Assembly (NCBI RefSeq): GCF_014696715.1 | Contig: NZ_JACJQO010000005.1 | Location: 1,116,001-1,180,000 of the forward strand | Direction of reading: 5' to 3' | DNA: 64,000 bases | Origin: Pseudanabaena sp. FACHB-2040 | Lineage (GTDB): Bacteria > Cyanobacteriota > Cyanobacteriia > Phormidesmidales > Phormidesmidaceae | In this document: positions 3,502 through 40,130 of the stretch, piece by piece | Position numbering within the stretch: position 1 is the first letter of the stretch | Layout: each line of letters begins with the position of its first letter | Made by a program: the position numbers and the translations under genes | The notes under the pieces: model-generated | Told to the model about the DNA's origin: nothing | Database searches by the model: none | What the model saw: the letters and a program-made list of their open reading frames with translations, nothing else

Positions 3502-6500
3502 TCAACTCTGACAATAGGAGGGCAGCGTAACGGTGAACGTCGTGCCGACCCCCAACTCGCTGCTGAGCTGTACTGTGCCGTGGTGTAGGTCTACGCATTT
3601 CTTGACAACCGATAGACCTAACCCGGTCCCCTGAATAGTGCCGACATTGCTGGCCCGATAAAAAGACTCAAACAGCAGTTCAATATCTGCCGCCGGAATG
3701 CCCAAGCCCCAGTCCTGCACCACAAAGCGGGCCTGTCCCTCCTTTAGATACAGGGAGAAGTGAACTGGGCTGCCCTCAGGTGAATACTTGATGGCATTGA
3801 CCAGCAGATTTATCAGAATTTGCCGCAGCAGCTTTTGATCCATGCACACGACGGGCATATCTGAGGGCGGCTGTGACGTGCCAGCACTTGAATACACCGA
3901 AAATTGCAGGCTGTGATGATCACTGCTGAGCTGCAGTTCCTGGGTCAGCGTCTGGCAAAACGGGACTAGGCTAAAGGTAGTAGGAATAAAGGCTAGCCTG
4001 TCGGCCTCTGCCCGGTTAAGCAGCAAAATGTCATCCAGCAGATGGGTGGTGTGCTGAACGTAGGTTTGAATGGTTTGCAGATGCTGCTGCTTTTTCTCTT
4101 CACTAAGACGGCTGCCAAAGCTCTTGAGAATGCCTGCAGAGGAGGCAATGACCGCTAGCGGTGTCCGAAATTCGTGGGAGGTCATGGAGATAACGCGAGA
4201 TTTGAGATCGCTAAGCTCCTTTTCTCGGGCCAGAGCACGGTGCATCTCCTGTTCACTGCGCTTGCGATCGGTAATGTCAGTCACCCGCACCAGATTAATC
4301 ACTTGGCCCTCAACGGGAATGGTGCGAGCGGCAAGATTGCCCCAAAACTCATTGCCTTTTAGGGTGATGTACTCAACCTCTCGGCTCCAAAAGCCTTTCT
4401 GGCTCATCTGCTCGACAATGGCCTCTAGTTCTGAGTCACTAAACAAATGCTTTTGCAGCGCTTCTCCGCCCACAATGCCAATCAAGTCTGCTTTGCAATC
4501 AGCTTCGAATAGTTCTACTGCTCGGTCATTGCAGTCAATCGTCAGAAAAGTTTCTGCATCTACTAGAAAAAGGGCATCGGTAGAGTTGTTGAAGATGGCG
4601 TCTCGCAGTTTTTGGGAGCGCTCGATTTCGGCTTCGACCTGCTTGCGCTGGGTAATATCGAGGAACAAACCGTCCCAAAGAATAGAGCCATCTTCCCGCA
4701 ATTCTGGTTCAGACATGCCCTGTACCCAGACCAAGCGACCCGAAGGGGTATAAAAGCGGCCCTCCCAAATCCAGCGGGTCAGAGTAGCGGCGGAGGCTTG
4801 AATAGTTTGGCTTAAAGAGTCCTGGTCGTCTGGGTGGAGCAGCCTAAGAGCAGTGTCAGCCTCCTGCTGAATGACGGCAGCATCGATTTCTAAAATTTCG
4901 GTGATGCGATCGCTCATATAAGGAAACTCGCGCCGCCCATCGCTGTGCAGCACAAACTGATACATGGCCCCCGGTGCGTTGGCAGCAATGCGCTGAAAGC
5001 GGGCCTGGTTGCGGCGAACGGTTTCTTCTGCGAGACGACGGGCCGAGATGTCACGAACCATGACCAGCACCGTATCGTCTTCGCAAAGCGTTAGGCGGGC
5101 CTCCTCATGTACGGTCTGACCGTTGATAACAATCTGGTACTCCTGAGTGCGGCTTACCCCTGTATCTAGAACCTGACGCACACAGTTCAGTCGGCTCTGG
5201 GCAAGGTCTGGCGGCAAAACGTCAAAAATATTGGCTCCTGGCATCAGCTTTTCCAAGTTGACCAGGTGCACTCCGGCACTCCTAAAGATATCTAGGTACG
5301 TACCGTTGCGGTCCACTCGCACCAGCAGATCAGGAATGGCATCAATTAGGGCTCGCTTGGTTCCTTCACTCTTTTGCAGAGCGGCCTCTGCCAGCTGCCG
5401 CTGAGTGACATCGCGGGCTGTGCCGACAAACTGCAGCACCTTTCCCTTTGAGTCTCGCTTAAAAACAGTGTCGTGGCTCTGAAACCAGCGCCAGGAACCA
5501 TCGGCCAGTCGGATTCGGTACTCGATTTGCGCTATTTCCCCTTCGCCCAGATTTCGAATCTGCTTGAGATAGGCAGACAGTCTCCCCACATCGTCAGGGT
5601 GGATATAGGACTGAAAGAAGCTAGCACCCATGCTCAAAATAGATTCCGGCGGGTAACCCAGGAGATCTTGAATGGCACGGTTTATATAGACATAGCGACT
5701 AGCCGACAGATCGTAGATATAGAGGATGTTGGGGCTCCTATCGGCAATGCTTTCAATGAACTGGCGACTTTCTCGCAGGGCTGCTTCAATCTCCTCTCGC
5801 TGATGAATCTCTAGCAATAACAGGTGATTGCTCTCTGCTAGCTCCCGGGTGCGGGCAGTAACCCGCTGCTCTAACTCCTGATTGAGGTTGAAAAGCTCCA
5901 GTTCAGCCTGCTTGCGCTCGGTGATGTCGCGCACAATCACCATAGACTCATCTTCACCGCAGGGCACAATTCGCACTTCCTCACGGCGTTCTTCCCCATC
6001 TAAAACAATGGTCTGCTCATAGACCTGCAGCTTCCCGGTTTCTAAGGCCTGCTGTAAGTAATGTAGGCGCTGGCGGGCGATGTCTTCGGGCAGTCCATCT
6101 GCCGCCATGTTTTCTGAGACTATCGGGTTAGGTAGCGGAATGAAGCGAACCCCACCGCCGCTAAAGAAATCTAGGTAGCGACCCTCTACTGTCATCCGCA
6201 TAATTAGGTCGGGTAAGGCTTGGAGCATAGCCCGGTTTTTGGCTTCGCTGCGGCGCAGAGCTTCCTCAGCCTGCTTGCGCTCGGTCATGTCGCGCACCAC
6301 CACTAGAGCCTCATCTTCGCCACAGGGAACAACGCGCACTTCTTCGCAGTGCGGTTCGCCCTCAATAATCATGGTCTGCTCATAGATCTGCCGAGACTGC
6401 GTTTCAACTGCCAAGCGCAGGTACTTCAACCGCTTGTGAGCCTCTTCGTCAGTCAGGGCGTCAAAGACAGTGTTGTCGGAAGTGGTAGGGTTGGGCAGCG

Positions 6501-36736: not shown

Positions 36737-37015
36737 TTAGGGCGAACGGTAGCGTTGCAGATAGCGCAGCACGTCGTCGGTGTCGGGGCGTATTACCAGG
36801 CCATTTTCGGGCATGGCGATGACTCGGCTCCACTCGAAGCGCTCAGCATAGCCCAGGATATGCAGGCTATCGATGGCGCTGCGGGTATCGGCTTCGGAAC
36901 CGACTAGGTACAGCCGCAACCGTCTGCGCCTCGGCTGGACTGTAACGTTTACAGACGCAGGAGGCTGTGCCGACTCTCCTAAAGGAGCCGACAAGAAGTA
37001 TTGAATTTGAAGCAT
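36737..37015 (-). CDS. small conserved-looking hypothetical protein
   Basis: 92 residues with no membrane segment. A beta-rich N-terminal half (MLQIQYFLSA ... RRRRLRLYLVGSEADT) is followed by a helical half ending DDVLRYLQRYRSP. I do not recognise it. ATG 37015 has AAAGGA about 9 nt upstream. It is convergent with sqdX, and its codon use is native. The gap upstream is 700 bp. Confidence 0.65.
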   Translation of the reverse strand: MLQIQYFLSAPLGESAQPPASVNVTVQPRRRRLRLYLVGSEADTRSAIDSLHILGYAERFEWSRVIAMPENGLVIRPDTDDVLRYLQRYRSP

Positions 37016-37280
37016 TCCAGGGATTCCTTTGAAATCAATGGGTAGGAATCCCCGAAAAAATGGCAGCCCTTGACATTGCTGAAATAACAGAGCGACCTAA
37101 AATAGGCAAAGCCCTGAGACAGGCTGGATCTGTCAATGGGTTAGGCGCTGGTTGATGCTGCTAACATCTGCCAGTGCCGCAGACCAAGTTTTCGGGGGAA
37201 GACAAGCTGCTCTCACACAGCTATGAGGATGAATCGTAGCCGATTTGATCCTCAATTTCAAGTAAAAACTGATACATCAG

Positions 37281-37312
37281 AAAGCGGGCTTCTTGGCGAG
37301 GCCCGCTTTTTT
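37281..37312 (+). terminator. orphan intrinsic terminator, possible end of a small RNA
   Basis: A 9-bp stem (AAAGCGGGC / GCCCGCTTT) around an 11-nt loop is followed by a T run (six T including the stem end). No plus-strand protein gene precedes it for 600 bp. The 200 bp before it contain a second hairpin (TGAGGAT / ATCCTCA near 37223-37251). A small RNA ending here is possible but unproven. Confidence 0.6.
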
Positions 37313-37385
37313 GTGAGGTGGGGAGTGGCGGGGGTGGAGGGGGGGGGTGCGATCGCACCTTGAAAACGTTAAGTACGCTAAAAAG

Positions 37386-37570
37386 AGTATGAAAGTTTCC
37401 AGCAATTCTCACATCAGCAAAATATTATGCAGAAAGTTTCCACCTAACACACCAGATCAGCGGTTAGGCAGAAACATTTCTATCTAATTGCCCTACAGGT
37501 GGGTGATTAGATAGAAATGTTTCCACCTAATCATCCCAAATAGGTGATTAGGTAGAAAGTTTCCCTCTAA
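37386..37570. repeat. array of five related imperfect palindromes, ~41-bp period
   Basis: Consensus TTAGRTAGAAA-nn-TTTCCACCTAA. Good copies are at 37425-37447, 37464-37487, 37507-37530 and 37548-37570, with a degenerate one around 37386-37405. Core AGAAA (or TGAAA) positions are 37390, 37431, 37470, 37513 and 37554, so the steps are 41, 39, 43 and 41 bp, close to four helical turns. The 16-19 bp spacers are unrelated to each other. This arrangement suggests protein-binding sites on one DNA face, or a recombination platform. Confidence 0.85.
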
Positions 37571-37721
37571 GTAGTTGTTATGCCGACTATGCTTGGTTTG
37601 GTGAGTATCTGTGACCTTCAAGATCAAGCATGTTCAAGACTACTGGTGAGAAAGTGCTTTTGAAATTGCTGGCAGGATAGCAAGGGTAAGTTAAGTTAGG
37701 AGCGATCGCAAATACTAAGGT

Positions 37722-38265
37722 ATGAACAGCTCAAGAAGTTTCACTCTAAATCGTTCTGGTTATTTAGCAAAGCTCCTCAGACTAGAGGATGCGACAGTAT
37801 TGCAAAACCTTTACGAGCAATGCACGGAGTTTGCTCTGCTAACTGATGGTCAATCGCCTTCATCGACGGCAGCGCGTGACGAATTTGATGCTTTGCCAGA
37901 TGGAAAAATGACTGAGGACAAATATATTCTGGGGTTGTTCAATCCACAGGATGTGCTGATCGGGATGATTGAATCGATTCGACATTAACTCAGACAATCA
38001 AACATGGTGGTTAGGGTTGATGATGTTGAGTCCCCAGCAACGAGGTCAAGGATTAGATTCAGAGTTTTATCAGGCGTTTGAAAATTAGGTATCAGCACAG
38101 GGAGTCAAGCAAGTATCATTGTCTGTAATTGAAGCCAATGAGTTAGGCTTACAGTTTTGGAGAAGCTTGGGATTTGAGGTTATCCGCAAGACAGAACCTC
38201 GACAATTTGGCAATAAAATTCATGCAGTTTATGTGATGAGTCGTCCTGTAGCAGCGACGGCATAA
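37722..38265 (+). pseudogene. GNAT family N-acetyltransferase, disrupted
   Basis: The first 88 codons (MNSSRSFTLNRSGYLAKLL ... GMIESIRH) stop at TAA 37986. An extra base at 37986-37989 breaks the frame. From 37990 the frame continues as DNQTWWLGLMMLSPQQRGQGL and, after a second stop (TAG 38086-38088 in place of a likely Trp), as LGLQFWRSLGFEVIRKT, the classic GNAT acetyl-CoA fold. The acetyl-CoA loop RGQGLD has Asp where Gly or Ala is usual. The reading ends at TAA 38263-38265, inside the attC box. One frameshift plus one nonsense change make it a pseudogene. Confidence 0.85.
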
Positions 38266-38349
38266 CAAGCCGCTTGCACACCGACCGTATCAAGATGGTT
38301 GCTTGAGAACGAAAGGTTACCAGCGGCGGGTGAAGCGGAACGTTATGCC
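38259..38349 (+). repeat. attC-like site 1
   Basis: The outer boxes GGCATAAC (38259-38266) and GTTATGCC (38342-38349) are exact inverted repeats. Inside them CCGCTTGCACACCG and CGGCGGGTGAAGCGG pair with bulged bases, as in attC R and L boxes. The total is 91 bp. The GNAT stop codon lies in the first box. Confidence 0.75.
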
Positions 38350-38420
38350 ACTTAGGTTATCGGTTAGGGCAGTTTTTGGGAATGCTCTTATAAGGAGAGT
38401 TTTGGTTTTACTAGGGATAT

Positions 38421-39164
38421 ATGAAGACTCTGTTTTTAGACATGGAGTGGGGGCAAGTTTATGGTTCTTATAGAAGACATTTTATTCCCATAGAAGTCGG
38501 TGTAGTCATCTCTGGTTCAGAAGATGGTGTGCCTGTTTTAGAGGGCAGAAAGTTCCGTCATGATATTGATCTAGTCATACGAAAAAACACTATTAATCAA
38601 ATAGGTAAGACAATTGGGTTTTCAGAATGGGTTGCCAATGTTGGGCGAGGAGAATATCAAAAACCATTCGACCCCAATTACCGGCTCAAGAAAACTGAAA
38701 AGATAGAGGCAGGAAAGCTATCCCTCAAAGCTCTGGGCAAACTGCGTCAATATCTTCACAGCTTGTTAAAGAAGTACCAAGTTTCTCAAATTGTATTGTT
38801 TGGAGGGCGTGAAGATCTCAACCTGTTGCGGAAAGCAAATATCAATACATTCAACATTACTATTGTTGATATACAGCGTATTGTTCAAAATGAAATACAT
38901 TACTTGTTTTCCCTTGATAAAATTTCATTGATTATTAGCTTTTACTCAAATAACAAGACTTTTGGCTCTAAAAATCTTCGATACCCGTTACCAGAGCGCT
39001 ACAGATACTTGATTAAGCCCCATAAAGCTATTGGGGATGCGTGTAGAATTTTCGTGATTTATGAAGAGTTTTTCAAGGTTAATCCTGAGTTTGTTCAGCG
39101 ATGTAAAAACTATCTTCACGCAAATCAACAAGCGACCACTAATGTTTCGGCAAAGTCGTTATGA
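38421..39164 (+). CDS. DEDDh-type 3'-5' exonuclease-like protein (cassette gene)
   Basis: 247 residues. The exonuclease I motif reads LFLDMEW (Asp7, Glu9), motif II includes FGGREDLNLL (Asp132), and motif III HKAIGD (His201, Asp206) has the His-x4-Asp spacing of the DEDDh class. All four acidic residues and the histidine can thus be placed, which suggests cleavage of DNA or RNA from the 3' end. I do not recognise a close family, and overall similarity to known exonucleases is low. Composition is AT-rich and Lys-rich compared with neighbours, which fits acquisition. It stands alone between two attC-like sites. A role in defence or RNA turnover is a guess. Confidence 0.7.
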   Translation: MKTLFLDMEWGQVYGSYRRHFIPIEVGVVISGSEDGVPVLEGRKFRHDIDLVIRKNTINQIGKTIGFSEWVANVGRGEYQKPFDPNYRLKKTEKIEAGKLSLKALGKLRQYLHSLLKKYQVSQIVLFGGREDLNLLRKANINTFNITIVDIQRIVQNEIHYLFSLDKISLIISFYSNNKTFGSKNLRYPLPERYRYLIKPHKAIGDACRIFVIYEEFFKVNPEFVQRCKNYLHANQQATTNVSAKSL

Positions 39165-39167
39165 CAC

Positions 39168-39239
39168 GGCATAACAATTCGGGCGCAGCGGATTGACGAG
39201 AGTTTCTTGTGATGTTGAAGATTTTTACTAGATTTCTTG
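39168..39239 (+). repeat. attC-like site 2, left half only
   Basis: GGCATAACAATTCGGG... begins 3 bp after the exonuclease stop and has the usual attC left end (box then AATTCG, GCAGCGGA). Its right half is missing: a 78-bp palindromic element (family A) starts at 39240, and no GTTATGCC box follows. Confidence 0.6.
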
Positions 39240-39317
39240 GGATGGGCAAAGCAAAGCGTGCCTATCCCAGGATAAACCTCTAAAAGATGGGCACGGGCTG
39301 TTGCCCTTTGCCTATCC
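39240..39317. repeat. short MITE-like palindromic element, family A copy 2
   Basis: The ends GGATGGGCAAAG and CTTTGCCTATCC are inverted repeats (11 of 12). It is in reverse orientation to the copy at 21287-21362 and shares GCAAAGCAAAGCGTGC and CTAAAAGATGGGC with it. It interrupts the cassette array between two attC halves. Confidence 0.75.
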
Positions 39318-39342
39318 TACAAATGTTACTTGTGCGATCGCG

Positions 39343-39429
39343 GTTCAACAATTCGGTTGGAGCAGGTTACCAAGAGCCCTCGGTGAAAATGCGAAGGTTG
39401 CTTGCAGCTGCTCAACAGAGCCGTTAGAC
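39343..39429 (+). repeat. attC-like site 3
   Basis: The left box GTTCAAC (39343-39349) fits the RYYYAAC consensus, and the right box GTTAGAC (39423-39429) fits GTTRRRY. Inside them TTGGAGCAG and CTGCTCAA pair with one extra G, the kind of bulge attC sites use. The site is 87 bp. No complete gene precedes it; it may be the remnant of a lost cassette. Confidence 0.6.
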
Positions 39430-39452
39430 TGCCGTTAAAGGGCGTGGCTAGG

Positions 39453-40082
39453 ATGACTAACAAACAATCGCCAAGTTTTGTGGTTGCTATAAGTGGCCCC
39501 TCTGGATCAGGAAAAACTTCTCTGGTTCAAAAAGTAACCGGGTTGCTAGAAGATGCTGTATCTTTCTATTTCGACGACTATGCTTCCGTATCGAAATACC
39601 CCTCGGACTTCTCTGAGTGGATTAGAGAGGGAGCTGATCCCAATCAATGGGAAACTCCACAGCTCCTTAAAGACTTGCAGATGTTACGGCATAGGGAAGC
39701 TGTTTCTCTCCCCAATAACAAAGGAGTGATCAAGGCAGCCAGCTTCATTGTTATAGAGGAGCCGTTTGGTAGAGAGCGAGCCCAGATGAACGAGCTTATT
39801 GATTTTGTAGCGGGTATCGACCTTCCGCTAGAAGTTGCCTTAGCACGTCGATTGCTTCGAGATATTGAATGGTGTCTCAGTGAGAAAAATCCAGAATACC
39901 TGGCAACCTATCTCAAAGAATACCTAACAGGGTATCTCAGTGGTGCTACCCGCGAAATGTATCTTGAAGTAAACGCAAGGGTCTTGAAGAATTGCGATTT
40001 AGCTCTAGATGGAGTCAAATCTCTGGATGAACTGGCAGATGAGACAGTCGCTGCGATCAAAACAAAACTGAGAACAGTCTAA
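39453..40082 (+). CDS. P-loop kinase-like protein, uridine-kinase type (cassette gene)
   Basis: 209 residues from ATG 39453, which has AGG directly upstream; an earlier in-frame ATG at 39402 lies inside attC site 3 and is unlikely. The Walker A motif GPSGSGKT is at residues 15-22, and an acidic DDY follows near residue 46, as in uridine and phosphoribulokinase-like kinases. The IVIEEPFGRERAQM segment resembles their Walker-B region. Substrate cannot be told: nucleoside, pantothenate or an antibiotic are all possible. The TAA stop is part of the GTCTAAC box of attC site 4. Confidence 0.75.
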   Translation: MTNKQSPSFVVAISGPSGSGKTSLVQKVTGLLEDAVSFYFDDYASVSKYPSDFSEWIREGADPNQWETPQLLKDLQMLRHREAVSLPNNKGVIKAASFIVIEEPFGRERAQMNELIDFVAGIDLPLEVALARRLLRDIEWCLSEKNPEYLATYLKEYLTGYLSGATREMYLEVNARVLKNCDLALDGVKSLDELADETVAAIKTKLRTV

Positions 40083-40130
40083 CTGTGAGTCCGAAAAGTC
40101 ACTAGCGGCGGGTGAACGGGGTCGTTAGAC
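40077..40130 (+). repeat. attC-like site 4
   Basis: The boxes GTCTAAC (40077-40083) and GTTAGAC (40124-40130) are exact inverted repeats and both fit the attC consensus. The right half (CTAGCGGCGGGTGAAC) is nearly the same as that of site 1 (CCAGCGGCGGGTGAAG). The site is short (54 bp), and the inner pairing is weaker. Confidence 0.7.

Follow-up and report, generated by a model that had tools for sequence, protein, structure and literature searches.

Integrons are described with a single attI site adjoining the integrase gene intI, and cassette arrays without intI (CALINs) are explained by cassettes inserting off-target, by the loss of intI or by rearrangement. The locus described here is a group of cassette-like genes in a cyanobacterial chromosome. 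The window, i.e. the whole stretch of DNA that was analysed, comprises 64,000 nt of a draft genome assembly of 44 contigs. The homology of its attI site, its attC sites, the cassette boundaries and the absence of intI show that the locus is a small integron cassette array without an adjacent integrase gene, which sits at an attI site of its own. The coordinates of all features are given in Table 1.

Table 1. Features of the cassette array and its upstream region (window coordinates)
Feature	Start	End	Strand	Description
Small ORF (92 aa)	36737	37015	-	Dispersed family found beside several attI platforms
Conserved non-coding region, candidate RNA	37018	37320	+	Strongly folding, terminator-like hairpin at end; dispersed repeat
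attI site	37427	37580	+	Tandem palindromic units 37430-37560, then core GAAAGTTTCCCTCTAAGTAGTTG|TTA; predicted crossover after G37577
Cassette 1	37578	38342	+	Decayed GNAT acetyltransferase gene 37722-38265; start GTTATGCC, end GGCATAAC
attC 1	38260	38348	+	R1 70.1 bits, 1.5e-18; extrahelical bases on L'' arm
Cassette 2	38343	39423	+	Exonuclease-like gene 38421-39164; half R'' box GGCATAAC 39168-39175; MITE-like repeat 39228-39324
attC 2	39343	39429	+	R1 48 bits, 7.3e-12; R'' box partly mismatched (GTTCAAC)
Cassette 3	39424	40124	+	P-loop, uridine-kinase-like gene 39453-40082; start GTTAGAC, end GTCTAAC
Truncated attC	40077	40130	+	Right half resembles attC 1, left half missing

A preliminary description, made from sequence alone, had reported an integron-like cassette array with no visible integrase and a series of paired boxes. 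Every box is present (GTTATGCC at 37577 and 38342, GGCATAAC at 38259 and 39168, GTTAGAC at 39423 and 40124, GTCTAAC at 40077), and the array reading is supported, with no integrase gene in the 64-kb window. Three further claims also held, i.e. that the genes end in or near boxes (for the exonuclease-like gene, the stop precedes the box by 3 nt), that stop codons lie inside a box (TAA 38263-38265 in cassette 1, and that of the kinase gene), and that the first and fourth sites have a common right half (38304-38345 versus 40086-40127, 79% over 42 nt). The claim of four attC-type sites held only in part, because no more than two of the four are good attCs; the first, at 37577, is not an attC, and its box is the crossover point of the attI site. 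The exonuclease-like and kinase-like roles hold at the level of fold class only. The remark that little has been written on cyanobacterial arrays is justified where detailed accounts are concerned, yet integrons have already been reported in cyanobacteria (PMC8618304, PMC9668308).

For the identification of attC sites, a simple scan for boxes plus stems yielded 65 matches, versus 53 in the reversed sequence. As these were too many chance matches, the scan alone was dropped in favor of a covariance model, R1, trained on 14 attC-like sites from related genomes and none from the present one. The consensus fold of the training set has 21 pairs, with compensatory changes at 12, and part of this signal follows from the selection of the training sites by pairing. 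Both this model and the attI motif used below were built for the present analysis and not taken from IntegronFinder. In the window, R1 detected exactly two strong attCs; the next match had 14 bits (E 0.13), and the remainder were no better. The bottom-strand DNA fold of attC 1 has a z value of −3.8. The fold of attC 2 itself was no better than those of shuffles, and the same is true of the segment at 40077-40130, which gave no R1 match. Only a half site (9.7 bits) is present at 39168, followed by the MITE-like repeat in the attC region of cassette 2. That repeat has other copies in the genome; similar copies lie at L187, L108, and L189. An Rfam search for attC returned nothing credible. A sequence like attC 1 (77% over 84 bp) was observed at 4001-4083 of plasmid4 of Scytonema sp. 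NIES-4073 (AP018267.1, L285), 26 bp past a gene end.

In each cassette, the start box is the exact complement of the end box, i.e. GTTATGCC/GGCATAAC twice and GTTAGAC/GTCTAAC once. Such matching of R' and R'' is predicted by the integration of circular cassettes. An integron array further requires that the cassette genes end at an R'' box and share one polarity, which is met, and that its sites have R and L arms, extrahelical bases and a covarying structure, which is met by two sites, the third being truncated. The gene of cassette 1 is broken by a frameshift near 37985 and an internal stop, and its GNAT matches come from the C-terminal piece. The product of cassette 2 possibly has the motifs of a DEDDh exonuclease, recognised by eye only. 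This gene is patchily distributed (two of 386 cyanobacterial genomes), and its one other occurrence among these genomes has no attC beside the gene. The gene of cassette 3 matches PF00485 with 33.6 bits, above the cut-off of 22, and NF006085 with 3e-35, under the cut-off of that model. No homologs of this kinase gene were found in viral contigs.

The window attI is homologous over about 150 bp, by alignment, to the attI beside the intI gene on another contig (C8), and it also aligns with further sites of the same genome. Upstream of the C8 intI lies a block of tandem palindromic units that ends in GAAACTTTCCCTCTAAACAATTGTTAGCC, and the same block in the window ends in GAAAGTTTCCCTCTAAGTAGTTGTTATGCC. 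The nhmmer match of the window attI was 5.7e-38, the site itself being one of the six in the profile, and its hairpin fold has a z value of −9.2. Across our own, the cyanobacterial and the Cellvibrionales sites, positions up to GTTA carry about 1.5-1.9 bits each and those just past it only about 0.2-0.5, a sharp drop that marks the insertion point of the cassettes. Thus, homology to an intI-linked site and conservation ending at G|TT, both required of an attI, are met by the window site. A complete integron, with intI adjoining attI, is not present in the window, as intI sits on contig C8; a search for IntI matches found neither an intI gene nor an IntI remnant near or upstream of the window attI. 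Past capture of cassettes at this site by an integron integrase is well supported.

The genome encodes one full-length IntI (C8:183560-184498, TIGR02249 476 bits), whose homology to V. cholerae IntI4, a protein of solved structure (2A3V), extends over almost the full length of the protein (1e-94). When the attI core pattern was searched with up to three mismatches, eight sites were found genome-wide, and none with the reversed pattern; a profile search added a few more, diverged attI-like sites. Only one of the eight adjoins intI, namely that on C8. Seven of the eight have an attC in the correct orientation within 3 kb downstream, for which the probability by chance is about 4e-15; the eighth (C26) is a fragment situated behind two attCs. 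The C26 site and one more (C2) lack the full upstream block. The own attI of the array, the full-length IntI on another contig and the existence of several such platforms had all been missed by the preliminary description.

R1 detected 27 attC sites at E below 1e-3, scattered through the genome. The preliminary description would have been refuted if the boxes were scattered without relation to gene ends. This is not the case, because 17 of 29 attCs have an ORF end within 40 bp of the box in the orientation of a cassette, versus 7.4% at random positions; on the opposite side the number is four of 29 (29 attCs of the present genome, ORFs of at least 60 aa). No attI is recognised at about half of the genome's attC loci, which are, as things stand, plain CALINs or solitary attC sites.

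The duplication of intI-less platforms is shown. Two platforms (C1 and C5c) are 87% identical over 774 bp and have the same intI stub, i.e. the first few codons beside attI, with a breakpoint at L006:506. The deletion of intI therefore preceded duplication, and an intI-less platform was copied. The intI-less platforms differ in the cassettes that they carry, and some have good attCs and intact genes.

A module of the divergent small ORF and the non-coding region is common to the window platform and three others (C5b, C5:859k, and C4). The small-ORF family (80-96 aa) has no Pfam or NCBIfam match. Its relatives are found just 3' of an intact intI in two related integrons (L067 and L084), which is in line with the loss of intI from between the small ORF and attI. 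The non-coding region has a fold z value of −5.3, and over 11 copies seven pairs show compensatory changes. An Rfam search with this region gave nothing credible, and it is conceivable that the non-coding region within 36737-37320 of the window represents a new RNA family. The unit has at least 11 copies in the genome and is present in 24 of 64 family genomes. A general role of small ORF and candidate RNA as an attI-specific module was rejected because neither attI nor attC lies near seven further copies in the genome, or near most of those examined in relatives. In another genome of the genus (G008, L241), a different small-ORF unit, of type A, follows sqdX at the place of the window platform. 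The sequence past that unit resembles, by eye only, the 5' end of a group II intron; beyond this resemblance there is no support for the involvement of such an intron.

The attI core is not confined to this genome. In 64 family genomes, the motif has 28 matches in 14 genomes (control 0). Seven matches lie within 1.5 kb of intI or its fragments; of the other 21, which have none, two (L043 and L058) are cut short by contig ends. In relatives, intI stubs or fragments occur for example at L054 and L059. IntI is present in 34 of 65 family genomes and attC sites in 50 of 52. Three genomes (G021, G048, and G060) have 17 to 44 attCs each, yet no IntI at E 1e-60. A scan of named genomes found the motif on 31 contigs, including Cellvibrionales, so the same core occurs, mostly without intI, in related cyanobacteria and Cellvibrionales, and in both phyla it is correctly positioned upstream of intI. 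In Cellvibrio sp. 79, one IntI is accompanied by five attI-like sites; in Marinimicrobium agarilyticum, a single IntI goes with two exact and two weaker attI-like sites, none of them at intI. The core at the loci of Cellvibrio sp. 79 (L246-L249, L267) and M. agarilyticum (L248, L259) is the same as in cyanobacteria, even though the IntI of Cellvibrio shares only about 47% identity with that on C8. In Cellvibrio and M. alkaliphilum, sites without intI are followed by candidate attCs of a different type, which were identified by simple pairing without a model.

We consider it likely that the window locus is an intI-less integron platform, one of a multiplied set that is possibly served in trans by the single C8 IntI; recombination in trans and present activity are inferred. 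Cassettes would have entered one after another at G37577|TTA by IntI-type recombination. Several members of the set of at least eight attI-like sites would derive from integrons that had lost intI or had come to carry a small-ORF module in its place, and some intI-less platforms would then have been copied to other places in the genome. The single intact C8 IntI may act on these platforms in trans. That this enzyme carried out the capture at the window attI, and still can, is an inference, as there is no direct evidence of recombination in trans. More tentative, with the balance tilting slightly against it, is the wider idea of a one-to-many integron, in which non-autonomous units of small ORF, candidate RNA and attI have spread through the chromosome and one integrase enables capture at many scattered sites rather than in a single long array.

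The main rival, which remains possible, is a dead relic, i.e. a chromosomal integron of the ordinary kind from which intI has disappeared, leaving an inert attI and inert cassettes on which no enzyme now acts. The damage to the array (the broken GNAT gene, the truncated attC, and the disrupted half site) suits such a relic, as do the intI stubs and fragments at the C1 and C5c platforms and in relatives. In contrast, the core of the window attI is well kept, a full-length IntI persists in the genome, and the duplicated intI-less platforms have different cassettes, some of them with good attCs and intact genes. A second rival is a CALIN that arose when cassettes inserted off-target at a fortuitous GTT site. 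Such events have been proposed as a source of CALINs (PMC8618304), and IntI1 uses attI-like secondary sites (PMC10127599), but the attI homology of about 150 bp upstream of the crossover point contradicts it and all but excludes it. Ordinary dispersed REP/MITE-like repeats unrelated to integrons are likewise virtually ruled out: palindromic repeats are common in cyanobacteria and the attC matches are scattered through the genome, but the attCs track gene ends with the right polarity and come after attI sites, and the attI motif is correctly placed upstream of intI in two phyla.

Should many CALINs prove to lie on duplicated attI sites with an integrase acting in trans, the integron would in these lineages be a dispersed system, and a simple motif would then suffice to test directly how CALINs arise. 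Non-class-1 attI sites escape the standard program (PMC9024848), so that attI-bearing CALINs would go unseen.

Like a CALIN as defined by IntegronFinder, the window array has attC-bearing cassettes without an adjacent intI, and with two attCs by R1 it would just qualify under the two-attC rule of IntegronFinder 2; unlike a CALIN, it has an attI of the same type as the intI-linked attI of the genome. It resembles a sedentary chromosomal integron in its attI, cassettes, attC and chromosomal place. However, such an integron has one attI and a long array, whereas here intI lies on another contig and there are many attI sites with few cassettes each. In the open-access literature that was searched (subscription journals were mostly not covered), we found no precedent for many attI sites per genome and only one for an array that lacks intI but has an attI of its own, a Shewanella case in which the same genome also holds a complete integron beside the array (PMC9892861). 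The end of that attI, ...ACTAATAAAATGTT, resembles the TCTAATAAYATTGTT of relatives described here. The Shewanella case concerns two attI sites in one prophage, whereas here eight or more are distributed across a chromosome, and the type extends over several genera and two phyla.
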